This document shows, piece after piece, positions 1 to 59,658 of a stretch of 59,658 nucleotides of DNA. Within the stretch, counting starts at the first letter, position 1. The number at the start of each line of letters is the position of its first letter. Position numbers and translations under genes: made by a program. Source of the stretch: a virus. The stretch covers positions 1 through 59,658 of the IMG/VR virus record IMGVR_UViG_3300046535_000317. The stretch is one strand, 5' to 3'. Below the pieces are notes generated by a model. It was given only the letters and a program-made list of their open reading frames with translations, searched no databases and had not been told where the DNA came from.

Positions 1-114
1 TGCAACAGGATTTGCTTTCTTACCGCCACCCGTTGACGTTAACTGAGCAAACGACAAATGCGCTGCAAAAAGCAACGCAAAACTTAACAATAGGCCAGAA
101 GTTAGCTTCCTCAC
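1..114 (-). CDS. Exported fibre protein, N-terminal end (cut by window edge)
   Basis: The gene starts at a GTG (112-114) that overlaps the TGA of the upstream gene in a GTGA junction and runs off the left edge after 38 codons. Residues 1-24 form a Sec signal peptide: MRK, a Leu/Phe/Ala-rich core, then HLSFAQ with likely cleavage after SFA. The mature part begins LTSTGGGKKANPVA. Fibre proteins with an arabinofuranosidase-like domain often continue as AFSGAGDIVSG, which is exactly how the protein at the right edge begins. The two are therefore probably one gene split by linearisation of a circular map. The start and signal peptide are seen directly; the join is inference. Confidence 0.7.
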   Translation of the reverse strand, partial: MRKLTSGLLLSFALLFAAHLSFAQLTSTGGGKKANPVA

Positions 115-419
115 GGAGGGGTTACCTTTACATCAGCTGGAAATACTCGCAATCGCTCATCAAGAGCCAATTTAGTAATAGTTGGCGCAGGATCAGTAAC
201 AACAAGACTATTAGCCGGAAATGTGCCAGCCATCATAATTGAATTGGCAAACCATTTTAGACCGACATCAGTGCCAGACTGATCAGCACGCGGTAATATC
301 TCCGTAACGGTCATAGGAGGACCGCCAGATTTGAGATAGACCACATCGCCAAGGTTTTGTGCAAAACTAGGCGATGATAGAACAGCTAAGAATGCTGCCG
401 ATAGCAACCACTTATTCAT
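111..419 (-). CDS. Exported DUF2158/YodC-like protein
   Basis: This 102-aa protein starts with the signal peptide MNKWLLSAAFLAVLSSPSFA. The mature part contains GDVVYLKSGGPPMTV, then LKWFA and FPANSL, the pattern of the small DUF2158 (YodC) domain (G-D-V-V-x-L-K-S-G-G-P-x-M-T-V, then a W-F pair). Family members I know of are cytosolic, so a secreted version is odd. It lies between two exported fibre-like genes and its stop overlaps the next GTG start. Function unknown; the domain call rests on the motif only. Confidence 0.75.
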   Translation of the reverse strand: MNKWLLSAAFLAVLSSPSFAQNLGDVVYLKSGGPPMTVTEILPRADQSGTDVGLKWFANSIMMAGTFPANSLVVTDPAPTITKLALDERLRVFPADVKVTPP

Positions 420-431
420 ACATTTCTCCCA

Positions 432-3400
432 TTACAACTGAGCGTAATATACAATTGCTTGTGTGGCAGTTCCAGCAGAAGTATTGATACAAAGTGCATT
501 AGAAACTGCTGTCTTAAGTCCACGCGCAAATGGTGAACCATCTACAAGACCAACTTGCGCAGTCAACTGAAAAGCAGGAGTTATTGCGGTAGGACCTCCA
601 CTGCAATTCGTTGACGTACCATAAATCAACTTCACATTAACCGTACCGCCAGCTAGAATCGAATACCCACACACATAGATTATTCGACCGGAACTCAGGG
701 CAACCAACTCAGTTGATCCATTGGTAGAGGCATCGTAAATAGCACTGCTATTGCACTGAATTAATCCCTGAACAAGGCCACCAGTCGCACCACTCGTATT
801 TGCGCCAACATAAACCGCATTGGCAGGAGGCGCTGCACCAGTAGCGGCATCAAAAGCGCCACCCGCATTGCCAAGATTTCGGACAGTTCCAATTACCTTA
901 GTCGTTTCCGCTGACAAAGTAGCATTGACAGAAAACGCTGTATTATCAGAAGCAATAGTAACTCGCTGCGATCCTGTTCCAGTGACACCATTTCCCATTA
1001 ACAGTGCCGCACCATTCATCTGCGCAAGATTTGTAACTGTGGCTACTGTCTGCGCAGCCGAAATATTAACCGTGCCGATAACCTTAGTAGTCTCTGCTGA
1101 TAGAGTAGCATTAACTGAAAACGCCGTATTGTCAGAAGCAATAGTAACACGTTGTGAACCTGTTCCGGTAACGCCATTGCCAGCGAGTGTTGCTGCCGCA
1201 TTAATATAAGATAGCGATGTGGCATTTGTAGTTCCAGGAGTGGTTTGGTCAATGCCTACTTTGCCGATAATGTTTGATCCAGTTGCAAGAGGATTAATCA
1301 GCGCATCGAGAAGCGGATTAACCGACGAGACAGTTGGAGAGATGATGACCTGTCCGCCAGAACCCGTGATAGCTGTCGTCAGCCGAGCACGAATGACGCG
1401 CGTTCCTCTCGTGGACAAGGCAACGGCAGTCTGCCCGGTCGTCAGGGTCAGTGGATTGGTTCCGGCCAGTAGCGGGTACTGCTGATTGACGGCGCTAGTC
1501 GGGAGGTTGACGAACGTGCCGGTCGTGCCAGAGCAATCCGTAGCATCGTTCGCATACTGAAATGAAATGACACCAAGTGTAATTGTTCCACTACCAACGA
1601 TATCAATCAAGACAGTTGGAGCACTATCACCGCAAGACACAACAAGGTTAGTATTTACAGATGTTGCTGTCGTCCACGTTGTAATCGTTCCCCAGTCAGC
1701 ACCTGGACGATTTCGGAGATTACCGCCAACACTCATTTGCGCGGTATTGTAGCGCGTATCGGTCAAAGACAACGGCGCGGAGTTGTACTGACCAACAGCC
1801 AAGGTATTAAGCTGATTGGTTGCTGCGGCGACGTTGGACACGGCACCGACGCGCCCCGCAACCATATTAGTGCCATCGGTAAAACCGACTGCCGTACCAG
1901 CACTTGGAAATGCAGAACCGTAATTAGATGACGTACCTCCAGCACCACCAAACGAAGTTATCTGATTGCCACTAGCATCAACAATTGCAATAGTTTGTGA
2001 AAACGTCGTACCTAATGCTAATGCAGTTGCTCCGCGCAATAGCGGACCACCACTAACAACATTAAGACCAACATAAGATGCATTAGCAGGTGGCGTTGCA
2101 GCAGTTGCGCCAACACCAACACTTAGACTGCTAACACGCAAGCCACCTGCCGTGTCACAAGACAACGGATCAGTTTGTGCAGTCGTATATGTTGGCGCTG
2201 CCGTCGTTACAGCACATTGCGCAAGAGGACCAGTTTGGCCAGAAGTTGTTGAGGCAATAGCGACTGAGCTAGCCCATCCACTCGGCAAACTATTATCATT
2301 AGCAATCGTTACACGTTGCGCGCCAGTGCCTGTTGCACCATTTCCTGCCAAGGTCGTCGCAGTATTAATCTGTGCTAATGAAATTGCATTCGTTGTACCT
2401 ACAGTCGTCTGATCAATCTTAACCGACATATAACCAGCGGTCGAAATAGCAGTGCCATCCGACGCAATCGTTACGCGAGGCGAACCAGTCCCTGTAACAC
2501 CATTGCCCATTAATGGCGTTACACCATTAATTTGTGCAACATTTGTTGAAAGATTAGTTGCACTGACTGCAACTAGCAACTTACCGGCATTATCGCACTG
2601 TAGCGGTGAAGAATTGCCAGTAGTGATTGTCGTTGGCGTTGTATTGAAACCGCAACCAACAAGCCACGCATTGGCAGGAGTAGTAGCATTCTGACCAATA
2701 AAATCAGTAACGCCACCAATATTGCCAACATTACGAACAGTGCCAATAACTTTCGTTGTTTCTGCTGTAAGTGTAGCATTAACAGAGAAAGCCGTGTTAT
2801 CGCTCGCAATAGTAACTCGTTGGCTTCCAGTTCCAGTAACGCCGTTACCCATCAGAACGGTAACGCCATTAATTTGCGAAGTGTTATTAACCCAAGGTGA
2901 TGTGCCTTGATTGACTGTACCAATGACCTTCGTCGTTTCGGCTGAAAGCGTTGCATTAACAGAAAATGCGGTATTGTCACTCGCAATTGTAACGCGCTGA
3001 CTTCCAGTTCCCGTAACACCATTGCCCATAAGAGGCGTAACGGCATTTATCTGCGAAATATTAACCGAAAGATTTGTTGCTGTAACTGGGAATGTGCCAC
3101 CTGTGCCAGTGACAAGCATAGCTGTGCCATTAGCACCTGTATTAGCCACACTCACTTGCAAAGGCGTTGTCGATGTACCGATTTCAGTACCAGCCGCATT
3201 GCGAAGATTGGTGAACAATGCGCGATTAGAAGTTACCTGGAACATGCCTTGCTGACCAGTGGTCAGAGCATTGCTCGTTGCCGTTGTCTGGAAGAAACCA
3301 CCGCCACCAGCAAACAGTGACACACTTGGTGTAAATGACGCAGCATCCGCCGTGCTAACACCAGAACCAGAACAGTTCGCGCACTGAACATTCAGATTGT

Positions 3401-4163
3401 TAGACGTGCTTGCGATAACAGCGCCAGCACCATCAACAATTTGAGTTTTCTGAGTGCCATCCGACTGTTTGGTAGATGTTGCCGCCAATGTAGGAAGCGT
3501 AATCGTACCAGAAATATTATTGATATTATTCGTTGCACCTGTCAATTGAACAGCAAGCGTTCCTGTACCAACAACAGTAGCATTAAGATTAGATGCTGTT
3601 CCTTGTGTAACGGTAACTGACTGACCAGCCGAAATGTTAACAGTACCAATAACCTTGGTTGTTTCTGCAGACAACGTGGCATTAGCAAGCAGCGGCGTCA
3701 TCGACGCGATGCCCTGAACCGTAATAACGTCGGCAGAGGCTGTCCCGGCCGTTCCTAGCGCAGGCTGTTTCGCTGCCGTGCTCGCACCAGTTGGCAGAGT
3801 AATAGTACCACTAATATTGGTAATATTCCAAACGCCAGATTGTGTTGCGGCAAAAGTCGTATTGCCAATTGATCCGCCAGCTTGAAATGGCGTTCCCAAT
3901 GTCGTATTAATCGTGCTTAGTGAAGTATTAATAGTTACCAATCGCCCCGAGATAGACGTTGCGGCAGGAGAAGCGGTTAACAAACCAAGAATTTCATTAC
4001 CGGCTGTATCAAGAATGCCGTGCTGCATCAATTGTAAACCAGCACCAAGGTCTTTTGACTTCAAATTAATATCGGCTCCATTAGTCACCGTAACGGCATT
4101 ATCGGCCGCATTTGCACTAAATGCCCACAATAAGCAAGTGGACGACATTAGGAGTTTGCGCAT
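432..4163 (-). CDS. Exported repetitive fibre-like protein, 1243 aa
   Basis: The start is the ATG at 4163, behind an AAGGA ribosome site; the frame is open further upstream but the signal peptide MRKLLMSSTCLLWAFSANA begins here. The body is Thr/Ala/Gly/Val-rich and almost devoid of charged residues. It carries at least six copies of a unit built around GNGVTGTGSQRVTIASDN, usually followed by AFSVNATLSAETTKVIGTV (coding DNA about 895-1200, 2290-2530 and 2750-3040). The last ~110 residues (VKLIYGTSTNC...IVYYAQL) match the C-terminal half of the protein at 4352-4795. Composition fits a beta-solenoid fibre or adhesin of the virion or the infected-cell surface. No catalytic motif is visible. Confidence 0.8.
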   Translation of the reverse strand: MRKLLMSSTCLLWAFSANAADNAVTVTNGADINLKSKDLGAGLQLMQHGILDTAGNEILGLLTASPAATSISGRLVTINTSLSTINTTLGTPFQAGGSIGNTTFAATQSGVWNITNISGTITLPTGASTAAKQPALGTAGTASADVITVQGIASMTPLLANATLSAETTKVIGTVNISAGQSVTVTQGTASNLNATVVGTGTLAVQLTGATNNINNISGTITLPTLAATSTKQSDGTQKTQIVDGAGAVIASTSNNLNVQCANCSGSGVSTADAASFTPSVSLFAGGGGFFQTTATSNALTTGQQGMFQVTSNRALFTNLRNAAGTEIGTSTTPLQVSVANTGANGTAMLVTGTGGTFPVTATNLSVNISQINAVTPLMGNGVTGTGSQRVTIASDNTAFSVNATLSAETTKVIGTVNQGTSPWVNNTSQINGVTVLMGNGVTGTGSQRVTIASDNTAFSVNATLTAETTKVIGTVRNVGNIGGVTDFIGQNATTPANAWLVGCGFNTTPTTITTGNSSPLQCDNAGKLLVAVSATNLSTNVAQINGVTPLMGNGVTGTGSPRVTIASDGTAISTAGYMSVKIDQTTVGTTNAISLAQINTATTLAGNGATGTGAQRVTIANDNSLPSGWASSVAIASTTSGQTGPLAQCAVTTAAPTYTTAQTDPLSCDTAGGLRVSSLSVGVGATAATPPANASYVGLNVVSGGPLLRGATALALGTTFSQTIAIVDASGNQITSFGGAGGTSSNYGSAFPSAGTAVGFTDGTNMVAGRVGAVSNVAAATNQLNTLAVGQYNSAPLSLTDTRYNTAQMSVGGNLRNRPGADWGTITTWTTATSVNTNLVVSCGDSAPTVLIDIVGSGTITLGVISFQYANDATDCSGTTGTFVNLPTSAVNQQYPLLAGTNPLTLTTGQTAVALSTRGTRVIRARLTTAITGSGGQVIISPTVSSVNPLLDALINPLATGSNIIGKVGIDQTTPGTTNATSLSYINAAATLAGNGVTGTGSQRVTIASDNTAFSVNATLSAETTKVIGTVNISAAQTVATVTNLAQMNGAALLMGNGVTGTGSQRVTIASDNTAFSVNATLSAETTKVIGTVRNLGNAGGAFDAATGAAPPANAVYVGANTSGATGGLVQGLIQCNSSAIYDASTNGSTELVALSSGRIIYVCGYSILAGGTVNVKLIYGTSTNCSGGPTAITPAFQLTAQVGLVDGSPFARGLKTAVSNALCINTSAGTATQAIVYYAQL

Positions 4164-4173
4164 TATAAAATCC

Positions 4174-4365
4174 TTAAAGTGCAACAGGTATGTACTGGCT
4201 ATTACAAGCTTGAGAGAAATCCAGGCTATTAGTACATGGGGGAGGGGGAGTGCCGCCACCAGGAGCGCCTAGGCCAATGCCCATTAACAAAATGGTTCCA
4301 CCAATAGCAGAAGAACTAATAAGCAAAACACCAAAGATTATTATCAACGTGCTAATATTGGGCAT
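4174..4365 (-). CDS. Small membrane-anchored protein, 63 aa
   Basis: The ATG at 4365 begins MPNISTLIIIFGVLLISSSA followed by a second hydrophobic stretch, so residues ~6-33 would form one long membrane segment. The tail GAPGGGTPPPPC has a Pro-rich linker and two cysteines. It overlaps the end of the upstream exported-protein gene by 14 bases and sits inside the cassette of exported proteins. Function unknown; possibly a membrane anchor or exported peptide. Confidence 0.6.
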   Translation of the reverse strand: MPNISTLIIIFGVLLISSSAIGGTILLMGIGLGAPGGGTPPPPCTNSLDFSQACNSQYIPVAL

Positions 4366-4795
4366 AACTGACCGACCCAGCAACCAAACTTGAGCCAGAA
4401 GCAGTTAAGCATAGAGCATTGCCAGAAGGTACGAATAGGATTACACCTGTGCCATTGCCCTTAGAAATTCCAGCTTGTGCAATTAGCGGGTAAGCACCAG
4501 TCAAATCAGTCGTACCAGTTCCGCAAGCCACTCCCGTACCATAAACAAGCTTTACGTTATTTGTATTGCTCGCCATCATGTCAAAAGAAGTGACGTAAAT
4601 CTGCTTTCCAGTAACCAGGGGAATCACCTCTGTAGTCGTTGCTGCGGCAACACTGATTTTTGCAGAATTAGATGCACCGGCTTCTGGAATACAGTTACTA
4701 CCATTCGATGTATGACACGGCTTAAACGTCTGCTGTGCAGACGCCAGTGTAGGCACACAAAGCAATGCCCACGATACAAGCAGGAGTTTTCGCAT
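4352..4795 (-). CDS. Exported protein sharing a domain with the 1243-aa fibre
   Basis: This 147-aa protein starts at the ATG at 4795, with GAGG upstream. The signal peptide is MRKLLLVSWALLCVPTLASA. The mature part (VKLVYGTGVACGTGT...NALCLTASG...GSVSYAQY) aligns with the C-terminus of the 432-4163 product (VKLIYGTSTNCSGGP...NALCINTSA...IVYYAQL). The two conserved cysteines suggest a disulphide, which fits export. This is probably a stand-alone copy of a fibre tip or capping domain. Role inferred, relationship seen. Confidence 0.75.
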   Translation of the reverse strand: MRKLLLVSWALLCVPTLASAQQTFKPCHTSNGSNCIPEAGASNSAKISVAAATTTEVIPLVTGKQIYVTSFDMMASNTNNVKLVYGTGVACGTGTTDLTGAYPLIAQAGISKGNGTGVILFVPSGNALCLTASGSSLVAGSVSYAQY

Positions 4796-4834
4796 TAAAA
4801 TGTCCTCAAAAAAAGAGGAAGCAATTATAGGCAA

Positions 4835-5341
4835 TTAAGATAACGGTGTCAGAAAACAGGTAACAACAACACCAGCAGAAGATTGAATAGCATCGGCGAA
4901 ATCGACCGACAACCGATTACCAGCAGCAAGCGTGACAGTCGCGACAGTCGCCGATAATGCGCCTGTCTGTACGGTATTTGCCGTTCCATTCAAATTAAAA
5001 CCAGTTGTCAACAAATCAGTTCCGGCTCCAGGCGCGTCGGTGCCAGTGTCCTTAACAACTTGCAATACGCTCGTGCTACCAGCCGCGACAGAATGAATCT
5101 CGCGGCACGAGATCACACGCATTGATCTACTGGCAATAAAAAATACCTGATCCGTAGCGGCAGGTGTTCCAGTAAACATATATGTTGCGACGACAGTGCC
5201 ATTGTTGAAACGATCAACAATTTGGTTTAGCTGACTGCCATCAATCAGGCGAGGCCCAGGCTCGTAACGTTGGAGTAGGTTTTGCGCATTTGCAGGAAGC
5301 GCAATCAGCGCCAAAATGGCAGCAATAAGCCACTTTTTCAT
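4835..5341 (-). CDS. Exported hypothetical protein, 168 aa
   Basis: The ATG at 5341 follows AGGTGATAAG and opens the signal peptide MKKWLIAAILALIALPANA. The mature chain is rich in small and beta-prone residues and contains two cysteines (SCREIH and VVTCFL). It sits in the exported-protein cassette between the small-terminase candidate and the window edge. No family recognised; a virion or surface beta-sandwich protein is plausible. Confidence 0.75.
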   Translation of the reverse strand: MKKWLIAAILALIALPANAQNLLQRYEPGPRLIDGSQLNQIVDRFNNGTVVATYMFTGTPAATDQVFFIASRSMRVISCREIHSVAAGSTSVLQVVKDTGTDAPGAGTDLLTTGFNLNGTANTVQTGALSATVATVTLAAGNRLSVDFADAIQSSAGVVVTCFLTPLS

Positions 5342-5412
5342 CTTATCACCTATGATTACCATAACATAATTATGGAATTGATTAAGTTATGAAAACGTGA
5401 AAAAGCAACGGA

Positions 5413-5979
5413 TTACTGCACGCGATACCAAGTGGTGTTGGATACGCGGTAGACCCATTCAACGCAAGAAGCTGCACCTGTTATAACTGGGACCAGCAAG
5501 GCAGTCGGCGCGAGGCTTACAGTAGTGCCAGAGCCAGCCGTCACAGTCAGCGTTGTAATGATATTGTTCGTGCAAATGCCAAACAACTGGCCCTCAATTA
5601 GATTTGTTGAAGCTGGCGTCGTAATGGTAAGTGCGGTAACAGTGCCGCTCGAAATATTCATAATGCGACGAGTCAGATACGTCGCAGTTGTATTAGCCGT
5701 GCCATCAATATAAGTATTAATGCCACCGCCAAGCGTCATCATGCTAAATTTACCAGACTGCGGCTGCTGACCACTCGCGGCATTGGTATCGGCCGGAACA
5801 GTTTCAGCACCAGTCTGCGCAGGGCCAGCGGGAACCGTATTGACACACGTTCCATTGACCGTGCTAGAGCAATATGAATTGCCACCGATAATCGGCATAT
5901 TCGGTGCGAATGTCTGCGCCAATGCCGCGACACCGGCAACAGAAAGAATAGCAATTGTAGGCAAAAGGCGCTTGAACAT
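5413..5979 (-). CDS. Exported hypothetical protein, 188 aa
   Basis: The ATG at 5979 (AAGGAA upstream) opens MFKRLLPTIAILSVAGVAALA, a signal peptide, followed by QTFAPNMPIIGG. Cysteine pairs occur early in the mature chain (NSYCSSTVNGTCV) and near the end (GICTNN, ASCVEW), which suits an oxidising compartment. The chain is Thr/Ala-rich and beta-prone like its neighbours. Function unknown; it is the first of the exported cassette after the small-terminase candidate. Confidence 0.75.
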   Translation of the reverse strand: MFKRLLPTIAILSVAGVAALAQTFAPNMPIIGGNSYCSSTVNGTCVNTVPAGPAQTGAETVPADTNAASGQQPQSGKFSMMTLGGGINTYIDGTANTTATYLTRRIMNISSGTVTALTITTPASTNLIEGQLFGICTNNIITTLTVTAGSGTTVSLAPTALLVPVITGAASCVEWVYRVSNTTWYRVQ

Positions 5980-9596: not shown

Positions 9597-9839
9597 CTAT
9601 TTCGGTGCTTCCGCTGGCGCTACCGGCTTCGGTTGCTGATCCATAATTTGCTGTCGTAGTTTATTGATCAATGGCAGAGCCTTGCGAATCGACATTTCCT
9701 GCAAGCCTTCAGAAATTATATTCACTTCATCAGGTGTAACCTTGAGCACCAATTCAGCCGGTGGAGCCGCGACTTGCGTCGTAGGCTGCGCAAAGGCAAC
9801 TGTAGGCAACAGCATGGCAACAACAATCAATCGCTTCAT
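9597..9839 (-). CDS. Small exported protein, 80 aa
   Basis: The signal peptide MKRLIVVAMLLPTVAFA is followed by a Pro/Ala linker, a predicted helix (VTPDEVNIISEGLQEMSIRKALPLINKLRQQIMDQQ) shown here only as a span, residues ~35-70, and a Pro-rich tail. It is exported but lies far from the fibre cassette, among early genes. Function unknown; a periplasmic or membrane-associated host-directed factor is possible. Confidence 0.7.
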   Translation of the reverse strand: MKRLIVVAMLLPTVAFAQPTTQVAAPPAELVLKVTPDEVNIISEGLQEMSIRKALPLINKLRQQIMDQQPKPVAPAEAPK

Positions 9840-11262: not shown

Positions 11263-11299
11263 TGATAGTTCCTTCCTCTGATGTTGATAGACTACGATA

Positions 11300-11467: not shown

Positions 11468-11511
11468 TTCTAAGCCCTCCAATGGTTGTCGTGCTTCCGT
11501 CCGATTTATGC

Positions 11512-11753: not shown

Positions 11754-11775
11754 CAATCATCAGATGGAGCAACAC

Positions 11776-16968: not shown

Positions 16969-17568
16969 TTATTTTCTAACTGCCTCTATTAATTTTCGGA
17001 ATAACCAAGAAATATCGCCAGCCATCGGCCCTGGCGTTGGCAATGCGCCAATAACTTCAATATTGACACCCGTGTATGTATGCCCACACGGATGTCCTGG
17101 GCACGTCCCATCTTGGAAAAATCCGTAATCCTCTGACATATAAAGCTGATGGAAACCATTGCCAACATTCGCTTCAATATGTGAGCCATCATTCAACCAT
17201 CGCAAATAGTATGGACCACCGCTAAGATACAGATTGCCGCTAGTCCAATGGAACGGCATAGTGTAGAACGGAACGATGACGCCATCGCCATAGGTATCAA
17301 TGCCATCCACCGTAATTGAGGCACTAATTGATCCACCATTTAATTGATGCGACACGCTATCGAACTGCATTGTCCCGCGATCAGTATCAAATACAAAATC
17401 AGCCACAAACGACATGGTTGTAATTTGATTATGAACAGCATTGTATAGGCTATAATCCCAAATCCAATGCAGCACGTCGATTTGGCCTGTCGCAATAACC
17501 TCAATGGTATTGGCCAATGTTGGAAACCCAACTAACGAAATTGCCAGTGCTAGTGCTGTACGTCTCAT
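16969..17568 (-). CDS. Exported protein, 199 aa
   Basis: ATG 17568 follows GGAGG and opens the signal peptide MRRTALALAISLVGFPTLA. The mature chain is beta-rich (SASITVDGIDTYGDG, LYLSGGPYYLRWLNDGSH) with one Cys pair (GTCPGHPCGH). The C-terminus, ALPTPGPMAGDISWLFRKLI followed by basic residues, resembles a shortened PEP-CTERM-like tail of secreted alphaproteobacterial proteins. It is probably host-derived and acts outside the cytoplasm. Function unknown. Confidence 0.7.
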   Translation of the reverse strand: MRRTALALAISLVGFPTLANTIEVIATGQIDVLHWIWDYSLYNAVHNQITTMSFVADFVFDTDRGTMQFDSVSHQLNGGSISASITVDGIDTYGDGVIVPFYTMPFHWTSGNLYLSGGPYYLRWLNDGSHIEANVGNGFHQLYMSEDYGFFQDGTCPGHPCGHTYTGVNIEVIGALPTPGPMAGDISWLFRKLIEAVRK

Positions 17569-30552: not shown

Positions 30553-31269
30553 TTACCCACCCATGCCGTAATTCACAATTACGCCAGTGCGAAACGTCGA
30601 GCCGACTTCAATTTCGGTTCCAGGCTGAAGCAGGAATTTGCCGCTGCCAAACTTCCAATCAACAAACGTGTTGACGGTCGTGTTGCTGTTGGCTTGATAG
30701 ATCATGCCCACACCAAGCAGCCCTTTTACGCTCGTCTTGTTACGCACAATAATCGCGTCCAAGTCTGGCGCAGCGAACAAGGTGCGTTCCTGCGTGATCC
30801 GCACACCAGCCGAGACATACGGATGGGCCGTCGAGTTGATCGCTCCAACCGGGATCGGCGGCAGCGCGGGAAATCCAGCCGCAGCGTTGCTGAATAAACC
30901 ACTCAGGGCAGAGATAGGAGCCCCGTACATGACCTTAAAGTCACCGCTCTGCTGTCGGGGGCCAATCTCGCCCATAATCGTCCTGTTGTCGATATTGCTG
31001 TAAGCGTAGTTGGCTTGGAACGCGAGAAAACGATCATCTGCAATTGCCATCGCGTACCCACAATTGAAGTTCGCCAAGCCAGCCGCTTCGTAGGTGGCCG
31101 CCAGATTGCCGCTGACTTTGGTCGCCTCACCACCGACGCCAGCACCGCAGTAGAAGCCAGAACCGCCATAGAAGACCGGCGCACGCGGAGCCACGGCCTT
31201 CAGCGGCAGATCAGCAGCCTGTGCTACGCCGCCTGTGAGTAGTGCGGCAAGAACAAGGAATTTGCGCAT
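30553..31269 (-). CDS. Outer-membrane beta-barrel protein (Omp25/31-like)
   Basis: ATG 31269 follows GGGGTGAAAG. The signal peptide MRKFLVLAALLTGGVAQA is followed by AADLPLKAVAPRAPVFYGGS, the hallmark opening of Hyphomicrobiales outer-membrane proteins. About 238 aa of alternating strands end with FRTGVIVNYGMGG. Two cysteines occur early (FYCGAGVG, FNCGYAM). A phage gene for a host-type porin or surface protein could alter receptors, exclude other phages or aid lysis. It is flanked by the holin candidate and tiny membrane proteins. Confidence 0.8.
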   Translation of the reverse strand: MRKFLVLAALLTGGVAQAADLPLKAVAPRAPVFYGGSGFYCGAGVGGEATKVSGNLAATYEAAGLANFNCGYAMAIADDRFLAFQANYAYSNIDNRTIMGEIGPRQQSGDFKVMYGAPISALSGLFSNAAAGFPALPPIPVGAINSTAHPYVSAGVRITQERTLFAAPDLDAIIVRNKTSVKGLLGVGMIYQANSNTTVNTFVDWKFGSGKFLLQPGTEIEVGSTFRTGVIVNYGMGG

Positions 31270-31353: not shown

Positions 31354-31704
31354 TTATTTCTTGTCGGTATCAATTACTGTCGTATTTTCGCTGGTGACAG
31401 TTGTGTTCTCCGTCTTGATATCTCCACCAGTTGGCAATGGCTTGTCAGGAGTTGGCTGCTTAATAACCATACTGCTAATGGTATCGTCCTTGTCTTTTGA
31501 ACTTGAGGATGACCCGAAATAGAAACCAATGATAGCTGCAAGTCCTGTTGTTACCAGTGCGCCAACAAGCACTTGCGCTAGTTGATTATCTGACGCAGGG
31601 GGATGGAGGATTACGAGAAAGGTAATAGCGACAACAGAAAATACAAGAAATATAGCCAAGATTGCTCTTGTGTCTGGAACCCACCATGGTTTATCAGTGT
31701 TCAT
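31354..31704 (-). CDS. Holin candidate, 116 aa
   Basis: ATG 31704 overlaps the fibre gene's stop as ATGA. Two membrane helices are visible (ILAIFLVFSVVAITFLVILH and VLVGALVTTGLAAIIGFYFG), then SSSSSKDKDD and a hydrophilic tail. IIGFYFGSSSSSK is a common ending of class II phage holins. It would open the inner membrane for the endolysin encoded at 12207-12734. Confidence 0.75.
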   Translation of the reverse strand: MNTDKPWWVPDTRAILAIFLVFSVVAITFLVILHPPASDNQLAQVLVGALVTTGLAAIIGFYFGSSSSSKDKDDTISSMVIKQPTPDKPLPTGGDIKTENTTVTSENTTVIDTDKK

Positions 31705-34325
31705 GGACAAGTCGCTTTCTTATACATATTACCAGAAGTATCAATACATACAAAAAGCCCGCCACCACCCGCAGATGTTGGTAGAGTTGAAACTGATAAC
31801 GTCCCATTAACATGACTATCACCCTGCATAATAATTCCAGTGCTTGATGTTATTTGAGTAAAACCAACTGTTGATCCAAATTCAGCATTAGATGTTGCAG
31901 ATAGCAATTTCATTATATTCATTCCGCTATCTCTGGAAAAAATTATAGTATTGGTTATCCCAATTGTTGGATAGCCATCGTCTGAAATTTGAAAAACACT
32001 TCCATTTTGAGTACCGTAGATCAACTCACCTCCGCCATAGTTCAGAGAACGAAAATAGGTCCCACCAGTATTACCATCAAAAACAATCTTTTGACTAGCG
32101 GCAAGGAAGATAGGTGCTGTTCCAAATGTACCGTCAGTGGAATCTAAGCCAATCCCATAACTTCCATGGAGGGCGATGCCGCGATCAATGATCGACCCTA
32201 CCCCAGCGGCATTATTCATTAGCAGCCCGTAGGCCACATGCGACACGCCATTGTCATATGACCCAGCAGCGATCTGGATACCGATGCGCGTTTTATTGTT
32301 ATCAGTACTATTCCCATGATGATAAATATCAACCTCTACACCGACACAGGCGGCAACTGGATCGTTTTCTCCCGTCTGGTCCTCACAGACAAGATTAGCA
32401 CCCCATGACGGACCAATCGTCATGCCCTTAATTGTACCCGCAACGGTCTGAGGACCAGTTTGAGCGGAAGCAAACGATACGGACCCAGCACTTGAGGCTG
32501 TTACGAGGTGTTGGCCATTGTACCCACTTGGGGTCATGCCACTTATAAGTACGTTGTGACCGACGCTCGCAATTGCAGGGCCAGTATAAGTAACTGTCGC
32601 CGTGGCTCCTGTTCCACTTGCCGCTGTTGTAGCATAAATGCCGTTAGTACCGCTGAGTTCTTTGAAATTCGTTCCGTTCAGAGCTACGTTTTGACCACCA
32701 GTAACAAATAAATTTCTGTTGTGCTGTTCTGCAACTATCGTCCATTCATAATTGCCTACGAATGGCTCAATTCCGGTTATGCCCCAAATTGTGGGAATCA
32801 CGGCAGTTGACGGCGATGATGTGAAATTCGCCTCTCTTTGTGCCCGAAAATTTGAAAGAACATTTTGACTACTATAATTATTGTAACTGAACCAGTTAGT
32901 ATTCAAAAACCCAGGCTGGCCAGTGCCAACAACATCAGCAACTACATTGGTTCCAGAAACAGCACTAAGCAACTTTCCCGTCACTCCATCAAATACAGCC
33001 ATATTGCCGTTAGTTGCTGATCCAGGGCCAGCAACATCCCCGCTGCCAATTCCACTCGCCGTAATATTCTGCCCACTACACGTAATAACTCCGCTACACG
33101 TAATATCGCCTGTCATGCCACCTAGCGACGTGACCACATTCAACGTGCTAATGCTCGTATCTGGCGTAATCTTGATTATATAGTTAAAAGTAATCGACGG
33201 AGGAACAACTGAAAATGGCGTTGATGTTCCACCTTGTGCAGTGCCAGTTAGCGTTGATGTGATTGTGGGCGTGGCAGTCGTAGTAAGGCCAATTGACGCA
33301 ACTGTGGCAGTACCAGCTAAGCTATAGGCTGCTGTTGAACCAATATTATTATTAGCCGTTTCATATGACGAACTATTCAGCGGTGTCGCAGATGTATCAC
33401 CATTAGCGATAAAATGACTATGCGCCCCTTGCGTCGAAACAATCGTGCCCGCTGGCGTGTAGGCAGGCAGATTTGCAAGAACCAATGTTTGGCTTTGCGA
33501 ACCACCAGCAGCCCCAACGCCATCTGGATTAGCGCCGTAATACGCAAGCGTCAGTCTCGATGCTGCCGTACCACCGAGATTATCGCGACCAACTAATGCG
33601 CGACCACGCAAATCGGGTCCATTGAATGTGCTCGTGCCATTGCCATTACCCCAAGGAAAGAAAATAGCCGATACAGAAGTTGTGACATTTGCATTATTGC
33701 TAACTGTAACTGTCGATCCTGTTTTCGCCGTAACTGTCGTTCCACCAGCAACACAAGTTGCTTCAACAGGAGCACCAATAGGAATTTGTTGTGTATCTGA
33801 AAGTCCAGTTAGAATATTGCTCGCACTCGTGCAATTAACTGTCGAAGTTAATGTAATTGCGGTATAGAGCGCAGCGTAAGTGACTCGCGAAAACTCTTGC
33901 CCATAAGCAAAAACATAATGACTAGGTGCAACAATTCCTGACCATTGCAATACGGTACCTACGGCCGTTCCATCGCCAAACTGCGTTGCGCTACCGCCTG
34001 TGCCAACAGCAGACGTAACAGCATCCCAAATGATATTTCCATTGCGATCCTTGACAACTTGCCGGTATACACCATCGCCATAAATAATTGCGCGGCCAGC
34101 CGCATTCAAAACAATCGGGTTGGTATTAGGAATTGTTTCACCAGCATCTTGCCATGTCGTCTTGCGTGTCGTAGTACCTACAATGTAGGTATCAACCGTG
34201 CCGGAACTGAGCGGATTGCCGTTGTTGTCGAAAAAGCTTTGAACGGCATTTGGCATAAGTCCTGCCGATTGTGCCCACACTGGTGATGTCACGAGCATAA
34301 AAAGGAAGAAAATGAAATTCTTCAT
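31701..34325 (-). CDS. Collar-domain tail fibre with signal peptide, 874 aa
   Basis: The protein starts with a signal-like MKNFIFFLFMLVTSPVWAQS. A fibre attachment domain follows (residues ~25-110: SFFDNNGNPLSSGTVDTYIV, then NPIVLNAAGRAIIYGDGVYR), then a phage tail-collar domain (VLQWSGIVAPSHYVFAYGQE, then GPDLRGRALVGRDNLGG). The rest is a long beta-rich shaft ending with a Cys-containing tip (FVCIDTSGN). It probably recognises the host surface. The signal peptide on a tail-fibre-type protein is unusual. Confidence 0.85.
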   Translation of the reverse strand: MKNFIFFLFMLVTSPVWAQSAGLMPNAVQSFFDNNGNPLSSGTVDTYIVGTTTRKTTWQDAGETIPNTNPIVLNAAGRAIIYGDGVYRQVVKDRNGNIIWDAVTSAVGTGGSATQFGDGTAVGTVLQWSGIVAPSHYVFAYGQEFSRVTYAALYTAITLTSTVNCTSASNILTGLSDTQQIPIGAPVEATCVAGGTTVTAKTGSTVTVSNNANVTTSVSAIFFPWGNGNGTSTFNGPDLRGRALVGRDNLGGTAASRLTLAYYGANPDGVGAAGGSQSQTLVLANLPAYTPAGTIVSTQGAHSHFIANGDTSATPLNSSSYETANNNIGSTAAYSLAGTATVASIGLTTTATPTITSTLTGTAQGGTSTPFSVVPPSITFNYIIKITPDTSISTLNVVTSLGGMTGDITCSGVITCSGQNITASGIGSGDVAGPGSATNGNMAVFDGVTGKLLSAVSGTNVVADVVGTGQPGFLNTNWFSYNNYSSQNVLSNFRAQREANFTSSPSTAVIPTIWGITGIEPFVGNYEWTIVAEQHNRNLFVTGGQNVALNGTNFKELSGTNGIYATTAASGTGATATVTYTGPAIASVGHNVLISGMTPSGYNGQHLVTASSAGSVSFASAQTGPQTVAGTIKGMTIGPSWGANLVCEDQTGENDPVAACVGVEVDIYHHGNSTDNNKTRIGIQIAAGSYDNGVSHVAYGLLMNNAAGVGSIIDRGIALHGSYGIGLDSTDGTFGTAPIFLAASQKIVFDGNTGGTYFRSLNYGGGELIYGTQNGSVFQISDDGYPTIGITNTIIFSRDSGMNIMKLLSATSNAEFGSTVGFTQITSSTGIIMQGDSHVNGTLSVSTLPTSAGGGGLFVCIDTSGNMYKKATCP

Positions 34326-41238: not shown

Positions 41239-43017
41239 TCAACTGCCTCCACCAAGGCAACTATAGACCAGCTTATTGCTGGAGGTTCCGGTCTGAGTAA
41301 CAACGATACCGCTAGTACTCGTGACCCACGATAGAGCCGCGACTTGTGGATTCGATGTGACCACACAATCTGGCGTAGATGCAAAGGTCGCGCCAAATCC
41401 TATTGTGCAAGCCGTTGGTGCTCCAGTGCCAACCGTCACCGTGCCATGCAAATCCTTAGCCCCGGATATTGATGGGCTCGATCCGCAAGATGTTACAGTT
41501 GTCGCAGTTGGCTGCAAAATGACAGAGAAGTGAGCGCCAGAGTCAAATGAAATGGAATTATTAAGCTGCCCAGCCGAGTTCGAGGTTTTCAAAGTTAGCG
41601 TCGTCGGTACATTAGCCCCAGACACCGCACCAGCTGTCGATGCATAGATTTCCGCTGCATTAACGTAACTCGTAGTAAATCCCTGGAAAACCAGTATTCC
41701 AAGCGAGTCTCCAGTATTAACGGCAGCGCCTGTACGGCTTTTCTGGAAATTGAATACGGCCGCTCCGCTATCGGCGGTGGTGTTCTGAAACACAGATTGT
41801 GGCTGAAAAGTTGTAGCAGAAGAACAAGAGATGCTGTTGTTGGCATCAACGGAGCAGCCAGATGCGGCCAGAGCCGACGTGCCATTTCCCTTGATAATTG
41901 CATTAGTCGTAAACGTGCCAGCGCCAGTACCACCATTAGCAACTGTCAACGGAGTCCCGAGTGTGGCTGATGCCGCCGATACGGCACCTGATGCGATCAA
42001 AGCACCAGTCAGATTAAGACCAGATGCGTTACCCCACAGTTCACTGTCGGTGGTATTACCGCTGTTCAACCAGCGAACACTTTGTCCTCTCGCCATTTCC
42101 AATATAACACCATTGCCACCAGCACCTATAGATTTGTTGCAGCAATCATCAAATGTAACTATTCCTTTCTGAAACACTGACCCCCCAACTGTCCCAACGC
42201 CTATGTAAAGCGCGCCTGTTGGGTTCGTTGAGCGAACAGCGTAAGCACCTGATGTTATACCTAACCCCCACGCTGATCCGCTTTGAACACCGCTAAACGG
42301 AGTTGGTGTAACTGCAACTGCCGCATTGCCTACATCAAGCTGATTCAACGCAATGCCATTCACCCCAGCCGTCTGCATAACAATTCCACAAACACCACAA
42401 GCAATAGGTGTTGTGGCAGGAGTAGTATCGTCATTTACAGCTAGTCCGGTAATTCCTTGACTACCGCCACTAGCTGATCCTGCCCATGCGCGGAAGTCAC
42501 TTGTGCGCGCAGAACCAGTAAGCGCAATGTTTCCGCTAGCACTTACAGAAGAAACTTGAGAAGCGGCGGTAAGACCAGGAACATAAGCATCCTCCCAAGT
42601 TGTCGTACTTTGTGGAATATCGCTAGAACCATTTATAGCTACGCCCAGCAATAGACGATTAATTCTTGAGACAACGCCAGCGCCAGCATTTCCAAAATAT
42701 GTCGGGAGCCATACCGTAGATGCATTGCCTGCAACCGAAATCCCAGAAGTTATTGCACCAATATCACTAACAGTAATGCCAGGAGAATTTTGTATTAATT
42801 TGCCTGTTGTTCCATTAAACCGAGCAATAGAAGTATCTGTCGCACTAGCTGGCCCAACAACATAGCCTGTAATAATTGGATAGTCCTGCTTAGCCGCAAA
42901 TGCCGCATTCCACTGCACCGCAGATGGCACTTGGCCAGTAACAAAGCCAGGAGACGTTTGCCCCCAGGCATTACTCGACAGCAGTGCAGCAATAATACCT
43001 AATATACGTCGGCCCAC
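41239..43017 (-). CDS. Tail-fibre-like protein with signal peptide, 592 aa
   Basis: GGAGG lies just before ATG 43023 but at a better distance from GTG 43017, so GTG is preferred. The signal peptide is MGRRILGIIAALLSSNAWGQ. The start of the mature part (SPGFVTGQVPSAVQWNAAFA) and SATDTSIARFNGTTGKLIQN are common in phage fibre proteins. The body is low in charge and beta-rich, and the end (DLHGTVTVGTGAPTACTIGF) has a cysteine. It sits between gp4 and gp10 genes. Confidence 0.75.
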   Translation of the reverse strand: MGRRILGIIAALLSSNAWGQTSPGFVTGQVPSAVQWNAAFAAKQDYPIITGYVVGPASATDTSIARFNGTTGKLIQNSPGITVSDIGAITSGISVAGNASTVWLPTYFGNAGAGVVSRINRLLLGVAINGSSDIPQSTTTWEDAYVPGLTAASQVSSVSASGNIALTGSARTSDFRAWAGSASGGSQGITGLAVNDDTTPATTPIACGVCGIVMQTAGVNGIALNQLDVGNAAVAVTPTPFSGVQSGSAWGLGITSGAYAVRSTNPTGALYIGVGTVGGSVFQKGIVTFDDCCNKSIGAGGNGVILEMARGQSVRWLNSGNTTDSELWGNASGLNLTGALIASGAVSAASATLGTPLTVANGGTGAGTFTTNAIIKGNGTSALAASGCSVDANNSISCSSATTFQPQSVFQNTTADSGAAVFNFQKSRTGAAVNTGDSLGILVFQGFTTSYVNAAEIYASTAGAVSGANVPTTLTLKTSNSAGQLNNSISFDSGAHFSVILQPTATTVTSCGSSPSISGAKDLHGTVTVGTGAPTACTIGFGATFASTPDCVVTSNPQVAALSWVTSTSGIVVTQTGTSSNKLVYSCLGGGS

Positions 43018-44060
43018 ACACATCCTCCATTCGCATTAACAATCCCGGCCCTGCGTCTGCCGGGCAAAGTACCGGGCATTCGCAACACTGGAATTTGCGT
43101 ATTTGCCGCAATTAGCGTCTTAAGCGAGGTACGCGCAATCTTCTGCGTAATCGCTAATGGCTCCATTTGATACATGGAGCCAAGTTCGACCGCGAGATTA
43201 TAAATCAATGCACGTTGATACTCAGGCGGAAACGACATTTCGCTATCGAGACTACTTTCAACAGCCGTCACGATGCCCACAAAGCCAGTGCCCGCACCGA
43301 CAATTGTTTCATCAAGCGTAAACACATCGCCTACTTTATACAATTCTCCGCCGCTTTGAATTTCAATGCCGGTGATAACGCCTGACATAATAACAACATT
43401 CGCAGTTGCAGACATACCAGTTAGCGATGTTCCACCAATCGCGCTAATACCAATAATGAACGAGCCAATGGCAGATGCAAATTGATCCTCGTTAAGATTT
43501 ACCAATGGTACAGCGGCATATGTACCATCGGTGTAGCCACCGCCTTCGCCGCCAGTAGCTACTGCCACTGTGCTGATTGTTGTTGAGAAGCCAAGAGGGC
43601 TTTTCAGGATCAGGTGTATTTCATAGTCGGCGGTAGGAATAGGCCAGATAAACACATTGCCATAGGGAAACGCATTATCGTAGAAATATCGTGTCGGCCA
43701 AGAATTTAGAGTTTTCAATGAGATACGTGAATAATCTTCGTAGCTATACATTGGATAGAGAGGAAAACTAACTGGCGTGCTGCCACTATTCGGCTGAATG
43801 AAATAAGCCGCCATGATCTTGTCTGGTCGTAGCGTATTCCAATATTGACCAGCGCCAATCCGATTGGAAGCCTCGTTATTTCCAGGCATAGCAATATCGT
43901 AAAGCGAAGGTACAAGCCATCGCTTCACTTGCCATTGAGTTACCATATTCTGAAGTGCAGTAGAACCATCATTAATGTCTTCAGCGTTGAGCGTCTGGCC
44001 CAACCCAAGCACGCCAGCCATTTTCATGGCTTGTGTAATGATGTCCCGCTGTGTGGGCAT
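42999..44060 (-). CDS. gp4-like head-to-tail adaptor
   Basis: This 353-aa protein opens QRDIITQAMKMAGVLGLGQT, then LNAEDINDGSTALQNMVTQW, the signature of P22 gp4 tail accessory factors. Residues ~165-270 are an inserted beta domain (TGGEGGGYTDGTYAAVPLVN, IQSGGELYKVGDVFTLDE) of the kind found in decorated virion proteins. The C-terminus returns to the helical fold (FPPEYQRALIYNLAVELGSM). P22 gp4 is about half as long. Confidence 0.85.
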   Translation of the reverse strand: MPTQRDIITQAMKMAGVLGLGQTLNAEDINDGSTALQNMVTQWQVKRWLVPSLYDIAMPGNNEASNRIGAGQYWNTLRPDKIMAAYFIQPNSGSTPVSFPLYPMYSYEDYSRISLKTLNSWPTRYFYDNAFPYGNVFIWPIPTADYEIHLILKSPLGFSTTISTVAVATGGEGGGYTDGTYAAVPLVNLNEDQFASAIGSFIIGISAIGGTSLTGMSATANVVIMSGVITGIEIQSGGELYKVGDVFTLDETIVGAGTGFVGIVTAVESSLDSEMSFPPEYQRALIYNLAVELGSMYQMEPLAITQKIARTSLKTLIAANTQIPVLRMPGTLPGRRRAGIVNANGGCVWADVY

Positions 44061-44907: not shown

Positions 44908-44915
44908 TTATTTCT

Positions 44916-44985: not shown

Positions 44986-46254
44986 CTAGACCTTATCTGC
45001 AACTATCGCGAGCCATTCTGGTCTAATGTAGCGGAACCCAAACAAGACATCCATACGAGTAGCCAACTGATCGCTATTGGGCAAATACGGCGTAAGCATA
45101 CGAATGCTAACACCATCGTAAACTGCCCGCGCCGCTTCTTGCACGGCTTTGGACGGCATGACAAGATCGGCAGTCGCCATTGTCACTGCTTTTTGGGTAT
45201 ACGCCAAGGTCTTTCTGTACACTTCGCTCGACTGCGTAACCAGCTTCATCTGCGCGCCGTTGATGGGCGACGCCGTTACTGTCTGGTACTGCACATACGC
45301 GCCAGTGACGCTATCGGGCGGGATCATGGCCGGGTAGATTGGAATCAGCGTGCCACTGGTCGCAACGTCAGCCGTCACAACAAATTGCTGGAGCGTACCA
45401 TTCGACCGCTTGGTGACGCGGTTGACTGAGTTGACACCAGCGAAAGTAACGATGTCGCCCGCCTTCAGCGTGCCGGTGATCGCATTAACAAGAATCGTTC
45501 CACCAGTAACAGCAGTAGTCTGCGTGCCACCATTGACCGTGCCACCAGCCGAGAATGTGCCGCTGGTATGCTTGATGACCGTCTGGTCTTCGAACCAACG
45601 CTCGTAGCCAAGACCATTTTTCATCTGGCCAGAACGGAATTGCGCACTGATTTCCGTAGCCGGATTAAGCAAGCCAGCCAGCACATTGACTGAACGTGCA
45701 TTGGAAATCGGATCGAGCACAATGCGACGGCTTTCGCCAGGAGTCGGCACAATGCTCAGCACAGCATTGCCTTGCAGATAGGTGTCCATCGTCGGGCTGA
45801 TAATAGCACCCGTTGCACTTACGGCATTCAGAGCCGCAGAGCTATCGACATTGGAAACGAAGTTGGAAACGCCGCCTTCGCTGCCTTCCATAACAGTTGC
45901 AGCAACATCACCAACAAGATCATTCAGCATCGGCTGCAAGACGATTTCGTTGTAATCGTCTACCGACATTGTGCGCTCTGCCGTTGTGAAGCCAACATCC
46001 ACGCCGTATTGGCTCGACACGGTAAGCGTTGTGTATTGCTCGTTGGTGCTCTGAATATTCATGGCAGGGCCATGGCGCACTGTATAGTCATTGGGCAAGC
46101 GAATGCGAAGCGTTTGCCCGATCTTCGCCCCATCAACAGCAAAGGCGCTGTCGTACTGCGTATCAATATTCATGATAAACAGATTGGAGTTTTTGAAAAG
46201 GCGTACTGCTTCTCTCGTTATCATATCGATGGTTAATAGACTGTTGCCAGCCAT
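44986..46254 (-). CDS. Major capsid protein, P22 coat-like
   Basis: This 422-aa protein begins LLTIDMITREAVRLFKNSNL, then AKIGQTLRIRLPNDYTVRHG, YGVDVGFTTAERTMSVDDYN and ILQPMLNDLVGDVA-like helices, the N-arm and core of P22 gp5-type coat proteins. Length matches the family (about 430 aa). The middle (residues ~235-330) is a Thr/Gly-rich inserted beta region. It forms the HK97-fold shell and follows the scaffold gene after a long leader. Confidence 0.88.
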   Translation of the reverse strand: MAGNSLLTIDMITREAVRLFKNSNLFIMNIDTQYDSAFAVDGAKIGQTLRIRLPNDYTVRHGPAMNIQSTNEQYTTLTVSSQYGVDVGFTTAERTMSVDDYNEIVLQPMLNDLVGDVAATVMEGSEGGVSNFVSNVDSSAALNAVSATGAIISPTMDTYLQGNAVLSIVPTPGESRRIVLDPISNARSVNVLAGLLNPATEISAQFRSGQMKNGLGYERWFEDQTVIKHTSGTFSAGGTVNGGTQTTAVTGGTILVNAITGTLKAGDIVTFAGVNSVNRVTKRSNGTLQQFVVTADVATSGTLIPIYPAMIPPDSVTGAYVQYQTVTASPINGAQMKLVTQSSEVYRKTLAYTQKAVTMATADLVMPSKAVQEAARAVYDGVSIRMLTPYLPNSDQLATRMDVLFGFRYIRPEWLAIVADKV

Positions 46255-55862: not shown

Positions 55863-57245
55863 CTATCCGCCCATCCAATTATTTCCAGTACGATTAATTG
55901 TTAAAACGCGACCACTCGAAATTAGCTTAGGCTGTTTTTTCTTCATCGCCTGTTCCGGCTTCAAATGCAATGCCATTGTTTGCCAAGCGTCAGCACCATG
56001 CGAATATTCGTTATGTTTTGGGTTTAATGAAAATTTACCATTCTCGTCAACATCATATTCATAACGGCACAGACATTGCCAGCCGTCACCTGTGTTTTCC
56101 TCGTCAAAATTGCACAAATCAAAAATCTGCCGACCCGCGCGAATGCCGAGCACCTTTTGCGAAACACGCGGCACAACGCGCACTTTGCCAGGATAAGAGC
56201 CTAGCATGATACGCTTAACACTGCGGCTTGCGAGTGTCTCATTATCCGCGTCATGCGGCAGATAGTGAACACCATAGTTGTACTTACAGCTTTGTAAATA
56301 CTCGATATAATGCGCTAACTTTTCGAGCCGATTTTGATAGAACTTGATCAGATTGTATTCAACGCCAACTTGCTGCACAAACCAAATCGAAGTGTAGTCA
56401 TCGTGGCCCAAATCCCAAAACGTGTTAACTGGTCGCGACGGATCATACTCAACCTTACCGCGACGGCCTTCTAGCAAAACCTTCTTAATCTCTTTCGCGT
56501 AAATCGCACCCGTCAATGTCTGCCGAATATTGCCTTCCCACACATGAAGCCATTCGTCTTCGTCAGCTACTTTCATAACCTCCATTTCAATTCGGCTATC
56601 ATTTGGCAAGAACGGATTGTCATTCCAATTTAGCTTCATTACGTGCGAATAGCGTTCTTGCTCACCTTTATCATTGGTGATAAACTCAGGACACCACTTA
56701 TCGCGCTTTTTCACAAACCGCTCGTAAACTTCATCCGTATCCAATTCAGGATTGAAAGAAATCCAAATTTCCGGCCCCTTGCCGAATGGTCCGCCTTGCT
56801 CACTCGTATCGCCTTCTAATCGACCAAGCCCGCGAATAGTTGGCGGCAGCTTTGTCCACGTTGTCTTTGAAGTATTGCTAGCTTCTTCTACCCATGCAAT
56901 ATCAATTCGCGCCATCGACTTGATTGAATTAATCTGATAGCGCAAACCAGAAAAAATAAACTCAGAGCCAGTCTTTAGCGAAATGATAGTCGTTTTCTGT
57001 ATGTCAAATTCGTTTTCAAAGCCAAGATCAATAATGCGATTTTTCAATGTCTCGTAAACACTTTCATCAATTGACTTCTGTAGCTCACGAAAACAGGCAA
57101 TGCGCAGCTTGCGTGAACGCGCAAGAATGATCAGAGCTAGCGCAATTGTCTCAGTCTTGCCAGCACCGCGACCACCATATAACACCTTGTATCGCGCGGG
57201 CGAGTTGATTAGAAACAGTAAATTTTCAGGATACTTGATTTGCAT
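55863..57245 (-). CDS. Terminase large subunit
   Basis: This 460-aa motor has Walker A VLYGGRGAGKTETIALAL (~residue 22-39), Walker B IDIAWVEEAS (~120), a coupling region (ISFNPELDTDEVYERFV) and a nuclease domain with acidic residues in NTFWDLGHDDYTSIWFV (~265), HYLPHDADNETLAS and HGADAWQTMAL. It translocates DNA into the procapsid and cuts concatemers, by headful if P22-like, which agrees with a circularly permuted assembly. Confidence 0.92.
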   Translation of the reverse strand: MQIKYPENLLFLINSPARYKVLYGGRGAGKTETIALALIILARSRKLRIACFRELQKSIDESVYETLKNRIIDLGFENEFDIQKTTIISLKTGSEFIFSGLRYQINSIKSMARIDIAWVEEASNTSKTTWTKLPPTIRGLGRLEGDTSEQGGPFGKGPEIWISFNPELDTDEVYERFVKKRDKWCPEFITNDKGEQERYSHVMKLNWNDNPFLPNDSRIEMEVMKVADEDEWLHVWEGNIRQTLTGAIYAKEIKKVLLEGRRGKVEYDPSRPVNTFWDLGHDDYTSIWFVQQVGVEYNLIKFYQNRLEKLAHYIEYLQSCKYNYGVHYLPHDADNETLASRSVKRIMLGSYPGKVRVVPRVSQKVLGIRAGRQIFDLCNFDEENTGDGWQCLCRYEYDVDENGKFSLNPKHNEYSHGADAWQTMALHLKPEQAMKKKQPKLISSGRVLTINRTGNNWMGG

Positions 57246-58853: not shown

Positions 58854-59658
58854 CAAAACCCACCGCGTGTATGTTGATTAGTGCTCATCTGAGAACTTTG
58901 TGTCGTATTGAATGCTGAGAGCCACAAGCCCACTTCACGGAATTGGCCGGTGAACGAATTGCCCGCAGGGCTGCAAATACCAAGAAATACGCCGGTAATC
59001 CCATTCGTACCTGCGCTGCCTGTATTTGGAGTACCATCAACATTGGTATCTGATGACGCCCCATTAAGTACGTATTGCAAAGAGTGAAATGAACTATCTG
59101 CTGCTGTGGCATTAGCTACTCCGCCAGCGTAGTTGAATAGAGTATTTGTACTATTTGCCCATCCAACCTGAAAACTGAAATCCGACATCGCAAAAATCAT
59201 TCCAAATGATGTCGTCGCCGCGTTTCTATTCGCTACTGCTGAAACCGTATATGGCTGTGCCTCAGTAGATTGTTGCGATGGTGTAGAAAGTCCTTGCGTA
59301 CCAGAACACGCCATACAATTCTTGGTGCTACCAGTGCAGCCAGAAATATTGTATGTCGGACGACTTGCTTCTGTCGCTTGTTCCGCAGCGCAATCCGTCG
59401 GACCAGCGCCTCGTGTACAAGAATTAGCGCCACTTTGATCGTATAGCGTCTTGACAGTGCAACTTACTGCGCAAGTCGTAGAAAGTGCTTGCAAGGTTTC
59501 ATTAATAACGCCACCAGTCGAACAAGTCAGTAGTGTATGAGTAGCATCAGCAGGAGCATAAATATCAGCAACATTTCCAGTATAAGCAGATGTATAGCAA
59601 TCTAAACCCCAGTAGCCATAGGCTCCACTAACGATATCGCCCGCACCAGAAAACGCTG
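58853..59658 (-). CDS. Arabinofuranosidase-B-domain fibre protein (5' end outside window)
   Basis: The frame is open to the right edge, beginning AFSGAGDIVSGAYGYWGLDC, then YTSAYTGNVADIYAPADATH. It continues with CAVSCTVKTLYDQSGANSCT and ASRPTY, the arabinofuranosidase-B catalytic-type lectin-like fold found in phage fibre proteins. A concanavalin-like C-terminal part follows. Many cysteines fit an exported protein. Its missing start is very probably the signal-peptide fragment at positions 1-114. Confidence 0.8.
   Translation of the reverse strand, partial: AFSGAGDIVSGAYGYWGLDCYTSAYTGNVADIYAPADATHTLLTCSTGGVINETLQALSTTCAVSCTVKTLYDQSGANSCTRGAGPTDCAAEQATEASRPTYNISGCTGSTKNCMACSGTQGLSTPSQQSTEAQPYTVSAVANRNAATTSFGMIFAMSDFSFQVGWANSTNTLFNYAGGVANATAADSSFHSLQYVLNGASSDTNVDGTPNTGSAGTNGITGVFLGICSPAGNSFTGQFREVGLWLSAFNTTQSSQMSTNQHTRGGF

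Follow-up and report, generated by a model that had tools for sequence, protein, structure and literature searches.

We analysed the IMG/VR virus record IMGVR_UViG_3300046535_000317 (59,658 bases; "the window" below), which comes from an uncultured virus, and find that its tailspike and a row of small proteins encoded beside the terminase gene TerL begin with predicted Sec signal peptides (leaders). We propose that the virion adhesins of this phage are probably exported to the periplasm and oxidised there, joining the virions at or after lysis. At the level of sequence, export of the leader proteins is well supported and their cleavage is predicted. The phage is of the short-tailed type, and a second record (G001; 58,313 bases, 42% GC), syntenic with the window throughout, contains homologues of its TerL, portal, coat, and tail genes. 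Both belong to a family of uncultured, short-tailed phages of about 56-60 kb with a P22-type portal and coat.

A leader precedes the head-binding domain of the tailspike

The tailspike gene, 31701..34325 (−), encodes a leader (MKNFIFFLFMLVTSPVWA/QSAG, the slash marking the predicted cleavage; score 10.1), a head-binding domain (about 23-110), a Collar domain, and a variable body, in this order, and its product has 8 cysteines. In hmmsearch, the head-binding domain matches the solved tailspikes PDB 7eeq (7e-11) and 9vyg (1e-8), and the Collar domain named in a preliminary description of this DNA is confirmed (Pfam, 3e-9). The gene occupies the tailspike slot, following the genes of two large tail-region proteins, as does its leaderless homologue, gene 26 of Rhodoferax P26218. 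Because the head-binding domain is single-copy in every genome searched, with 31701 as the sole such protein in the window, there is no leaderless twin to serve the virion, a point in favour of the leader-bearing protein being itself the spike of the virion. From its sequence and setting, 31701 is likely incorporated into the virion. The preliminary description had offered two explanations for exported fibre-like proteins, maturation of virion parts in the periplasm or display on the infected cell; the former is supported for 31701 by the start of the mature protein at the head-binding domain, the sole copy, and the tailspike slot, and extends to the small cassette proteins by inference.

Scanning with the head-binding domain yielded 90 loci (80 viral and 10 genome loci), in 27 of which a leader stands directly before the domain by score; the spike of locus L021 reads as having a leader and scores under the cut. 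In about 60 of the other loci, the initiating Met lies 2-7 residues before an LLPN motif. The median number of residues left before this motif is 4 after predicted cleavage versus 3 from the Met of leaderless spikes, so the mature N-termini nearly coincide with the leaderless starts. On the spike tree, the window protein falls within a supported clade (99/94) of 17 leader-bearing spikes, and about seven changes of leader state are needed, at least two of them forced by supported branches. The leader is thus, on sequence evidence, a module gained and lost before an unchanged docking domain, and the architecture of leader, head-binding domain, and Collar domain recurs. In contrast, the isolate homologues examined begin at the head-binding domain without a leader: the known tailspikes with a homologous domain (PDB 7eeq and 9vyg, P26218 gene 26 in the same slot, and Xanthomonas phage PBR31) start with Met at the domain, whereas the window spike has a signal peptide before it and an even number of cysteines.

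Predicted signal peptides are unusually numerous in the window

Leaders were called with a home-made, rule-based scorer for the Sec/signal peptidase I (SPase I) pattern, which evaluates the charge of the n-region, an uncharged hydrophobic core, and the -3/-1 rule. The open reading frames (ORFs) listed in the preliminary description are present where claimed, and 12 of its roughly thirteen proposed signal peptides reach a score of at least 8, with 48656 failing. These 12 proteins have a positive n-region, a hydrophobic h-region, and small residues at -3/-1; they score 8.3-12.3, and the next of the 68 genes in the window score 6.7, 5.9, and 0.9, followed by none scored. At a looser cut of 4, about 2.9 genes would be expected from residue shuffling and 14 are observed. 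In Escherichia coli K-12, all 10 secreted control proteins score at least 8, with one false positive among about 50 others (TolA, a signal anchor). The same procedure returns two leaders in P22, one in T7, two in Rhodoferax P26218, and none in MW202674. The score gap, the controls, and the low counts in other phages together support the leaders as real at the sequence level and show them to be unusually numerous.

The product of 48656-49027 (−) was rejected as a normal leader protein, having an acidic n-region, a long hydrophobic stretch, and no score; it is a possible membrane anchor. Membrane-type N-termini of this kind are also found at G001 37128 and G017 45928, and a CC-containing motif is present in at least two of the three (DCCNKQDCHPV in the window, SCCGEADAY in G001). 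Separately, small proteins with twin-arginine-like leaders ('ARRSFITGL..AAPAIVRA') occur in related genomes (G004 32535, G008 35302, G013 58069, G014 40314 and 40709, G017 47827 and 49497) and were not seen in the window.

Even cysteine counts predominate in leader-bearing proteins

In bacteria, exported proteins favour an even number of cysteines (PMC7678975). We counted cysteines in proteins of at least 100 amino acids with any cysteine in 16 genomes and found even numbers in 62 of 68 leader-bearing proteins versus 168 of 368 proteins without a leader from the same phages (p 2e-13), or, with one protein per homology cluster, in 27/32 versus 70/147 (p 6e-5). Among complete spikes, 18 of the 21 with a leader (0-20 cysteines) are even, compared with 17 of 39 leaderless homologues (Fisher p 0.002). 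All 15 members of family 1, the family of the cassette gene 5413, have even counts, from 2 to 12, and in their alignment the two cysteines of a C-terminal pair are either both there or both missing in several members. The coat protein of the window, the protein at the scaffold position, and several tail-region proteins contain no cysteine. As cysteine parity played no part in the scorer design, this bias is hard to explain unless the leader-bearing proteins fold in, and are adapted to, an oxidising compartment.

The cassette upstream of TerL

Around the circle, the cassette runs 5413, 4835, 4352, (4174), 432, 111, 1/58853, and 57252, and TerL follows (55863..57245 (−)), a landmark just downstream that was recognised by tblastn to annotated phage terminases and has a homologue in G001. 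The product of 5413..5979 (−), family 1, carries the leader MFKRLLPTIAILSVAGVAALA/QTF (score 10.0) and 4 cysteines, with a conserved 'PIIGG..C..C..TVPAGPA' module before a C-terminal C1q-like/fibre-knob beta-sandwich. The protein encoded by 4835..5341 (−) has a 'PGPRLIDGSQLNQIVD' module, the leader MKKWLIAAILALIALPANA/QN (score 12.3), and 2 cysteines. Family 2, 4352..4795 (−), combines the leader MRKLLLVSWALLCVPTLASA/QQ (score 10.8) with 4 cysteines and shares 57% with G001 4123; its 'C.TSNGSNC' stretch precedes a jelly-roll-like domain that is found again at the C-terminus of 432-4163. The small ORF at about 4174..4383 (−), overlooked in the preliminary description, has a hydrophobic N-terminus and an uncertain start; its leader is unscored in the window and clear (score 12.0) in the homologue G001 4520-4735 (49%). 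A fibre-like repetitive protein of 1243 amino acids, 432..4163 (−), with the leader MRKLLMSSTCLLWAFSANA/ADN (score 8.3) and a homologue at G001 6202, has 12 cysteines, some in local pairs. The next gene, 111..419 (−), encodes a DUF2158 protein (Pfam 2e-11) with the leader MNKWLLSAAFLAVLSSPSFA/QN (score 8.3); DUF2158 is usually a small protein without a leader. Directly upstream of TerL, 57252..58853 (−) encodes a spike-like protein (leader MIRWIVALACMVIASATHA/GG, score 10.6; PHROG tail spike E 0.006).

Six consecutive leader genes had been described here. Their leaders score 8.3-12.3, but 1..114 (−), with the leader VRKLTSGLLLSFALLFAAHLSFA/QLT (score 9.3), does not stand as a gene of its own; it forms the 5' end of one that the contig end splits and that continues at 59656-58853. 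The 3' part, 58853..59656 (−), encodes an ArabFuran-like body with 10 cysteines (46% to L004), and because the homologue L004:505-1407 holds leader and body in one gene, followed by another leader-bearing gene and then TerL, we assign 1..114 as the leader of 58853..59656. When the two ends are joined as they stand, the reading frame is off by 2 (the 920 nt are not divisible by 3), which implies that the record lacks a few bases. The contig thus represents a genome, circular or circularly permuted, that was cut within this gene and has a small gap there.

The cassette recurs in relatives. In G001, the homologue of 6011 is followed by leader-type genes at 2412, 3149, 4123, 4520, 4738, 6202, 7893, and 8643 and then by TerL; some of this row score below 8 and 6202 is unscored, and the spike of G001 is also leader-bearing. 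Comparable leader genes lie upstream of TerL in G004, G006, G007, G008, G009, G010, G013, G014, G020, and G021, and in L170, L173, and L175-L179. On this gene-order evidence, the cassette is real and conserved among uncultured phages. Family 1 has 15 relatives in the fetched genomes, and a separate scan of viral contigs, with the mature part as its first sequence, yielded 12 loci, 12/12 of them with a leader. In the 4835 family, five cases (window included) have a leader and seven lack one, in the same cassette slot, which suggests that the periplasm is not required as the final site of the family's function. In tblastn against 50,697 phage isolate records, there was no match for 4835, two family members (G015 2556 and G013 5979), 57252, or 41239.

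Four further leader-bearing genes lie outside the cassette: a fibre-like protein between tail genes (41239..43023 (−); score 9.7, 10 cysteines), absent from G001; a small outer-membrane-protein (OMP)-like product (30553..31269 (−); leader MRKFLVLAALLTGGVAQA/ADLP, score 10.8, 2 cysteines); and two proteins with no assigned function, 9597..9839 (−) (small; score 11.3) and 16969..17568 (−) (score 8.8, 2 cysteines). The OMP likeness of 30553, which has leader-bearing homologues in G001 and G017, is one of motif only, and a Pfam search of proteins of this type gave no match.

Fold models tentatively link some cassette proteins to virion and fibre proteins

The AlphaFold2 (AF2) model of 4352 is all-beta (pLDDT 75), and its best Foldseek matches in BFVD, at this pLDDT, are phage proteins of about 107 residues, several of them annotated as 'virion structural protein' (E 2e-6 to 4e-4). 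For 5413, Foldseek (BFVD) returns C1q, depolymerase, and tail-fibre domains with E to about 1e-4. An S74 fibre chaperone (E 4e-10) is present in a leader-bearing protein encoded immediately upstream of TerL in L002. The folds, together with the leaderless orthologues, make it plausible that cassette proteins are assembled into the virion. The fibre or spike content previously ascribed to the leader proteins holds in part: the Collar domain of 31701 stands and some others are fibre-like, but the beta-helix of 57252 stays below the cut-off (E 0.025), and the arabinofuranosidase fold, likewise below the cut-off, appears in the homologue L004 (ArabFuran E 9e-4) and not in the window copy. Moreover, 30553 is OMP-like, 111-419 is a DUF2158 protein, and 9597 and 16969 have no fibre features. 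Display of the proteins on the infected cell is a possible alternative, but the genes of the window include no recognised outer-membrane translocator, and we saw no anchor to the surface. The earlier interpretation is partly supported, in its periplasmic maturation branch for the spike.

Other features of the record

The major coat protein, 44986..46254 (−), shares 69% with G001 21856 and has no cysteine; we take it to be P22-type from its sequence (compare the 'P22 coat protein' annotation in MW202483). A coat-like stretch, 'LRIRLPNDY', is found in short ORFs of the window (47974-48252, 12731-13117) and of G001 (44733-45035), possibly duplicated coat fragments. The TerL of the window lacks an intein-like insertion that three relatives have (L016 (G001) 10517-12982; L002 3320-5740; L003 636-3056), about 335 residues in G001, directly after the P-loop (GGRG.MK/CLALGT...). 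A 1405-amino-acid protein without cysteine (49005-53222) had no match in a Pfam search; its two 'YHGT' stretches are reminiscent of polyvalent ADP-ribosyltransferase-like proteins. Judged by eye, 7475-8080, 24860-25363, and 44383-44907 may be GIY-YIG and HNH-type homing endonuclease genes. No integrase was found in the window. A host search via the OMP-like protein gave no match in plasmids, and a scan of genome contigs returned distant prophage-like loci only.

Discussion

Tailed-phage assembly, spikes included, is held to be cytoplasmic. Under the mechanism that we favour, spike 31701 and the cassette proteins would be made late in infection and exported by the host Sec machinery, with signal peptidase I cleaving their leaders, and the mature proteins would fold with disulphide bonds in the periplasm. 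Meanwhile, DNA packaging and head assembly would proceed in the cytoplasm. Lysis would then mix the compartments, allowing the head-binding domain of the spike to dock on the tail. Late joining is plausible, given that the tailspikes of P22 can attach in vitro to heads that are already complete; both the disulphides and the joining at or after lysis are what we infer. In its strictest form, the proposal is of a split assembly line, in which the cytoplasm makes the heads, the periplasm makes spikes and fibres locked by disulphides, and the two are joined only once lysis removes the membrane; we regard the chances for and against this form as evenly balanced.

Several observations weigh against export followed by virion assembly. 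The home-made scorer can mistake signal anchors for leaders. Parity is imperfect, since 57252 has 9 cysteines and 6/68 leader proteins are odd, and a tree-aware paired parity test within the spike family had too few pairs. The structure models are middling (pLDDT 75), and 4352 matches PDB entries weakly, among them the cement protein of phage KHP40 at E 0.008.

A different fate for the cassette proteins, spike excepted, deserves the most attention among the alternatives, although we consider it unlikely. They might be secreted non-virion adhesins or polysaccharide-acting enzymes, periplasmic or released, that alter the envelope of the infected cell, for example by masking receptors from inside, blocking superinfection, or loosening exopolysaccharide at release. 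Some phage-encoded envelope proteins exclude superinfection, the leaders by themselves account for a periplasmic location, and both the OMP-like 30553 and a leader-bearing GDSL-like esterase in G001 are probably envelope-directed. However, 4352 and 5413 have predicted folds similar to those of virion and fibre proteins, the 4835 family keeps its cassette place without a leader in seven phages, and there is no recognised outer-membrane translocator. As far as sequence goes, non-virion secretion to the envelope is likely for 30553 and possible for part of the cassette.

Phages often hold some leader-bearing genes, and 9597, 16969, and 111 lack fibre features, so that ordinary morons, a few unrelated exported proteins clustered by chance with no tie to virion assembly, could be invoked; we think this very improbable, given that the place before TerL is kept in many phages and that a leader sits on a spike with a head-binding domain. 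Least credible of all is that the hydrophobic N-termini are membrane anchors, or leaders cut by another protease inside the cell, for although a virion protein can be processed in the cytoplasm (P22 gp7 loses 20 residues to the host protease OpdA, according to its annotation), the canonical n-h-c architecture with an A-x-A/Q junction and an even-cysteine bias that demands an oxidising compartment speak against it.

Among known systems, the filamentous phage coat proteins M13 pIII and pVIII carry signal peptides and are likewise virion proteins that a cleaved leader takes through the inner membrane. Such phages are put together in the membrane and do not lyse the cell; the window phage, unlike them, is tailed and of lytic type (GH108 endolysin), with a TerL and a coat protein that have homologues in the syntenic relative. 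T5 Llp and lambda Bor, small envelope lipoprotein morons, are also phage-encoded and exported, but they are single small lipoproteins rather than a row of fibre-like proteins plus a tailspike. The processing of P22 gp7 differs in that it involves neither a Sec leader nor export during assembly. We found no account of Sec leaders on tailed-phage spikes in the open-access literature. As far as our searches there show, the domains are already known; neither the cassette nor a leader on the spike of a tailed phage has been described.

If the proposed mechanism is true, part of virion assembly would take place in another compartment, probably after lysis, and disulphide chemistry would be open to tailed-phage adhesins. 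Ahead of lysis, exported spikes might in addition act on the infected cell. A leader and even cysteines directly before a docking domain provide a sequence rule for finding such phages, and the mechanism would account for the leader-bearing 'hypothetical' proteins encoded beside TerL in uncultured viruses.

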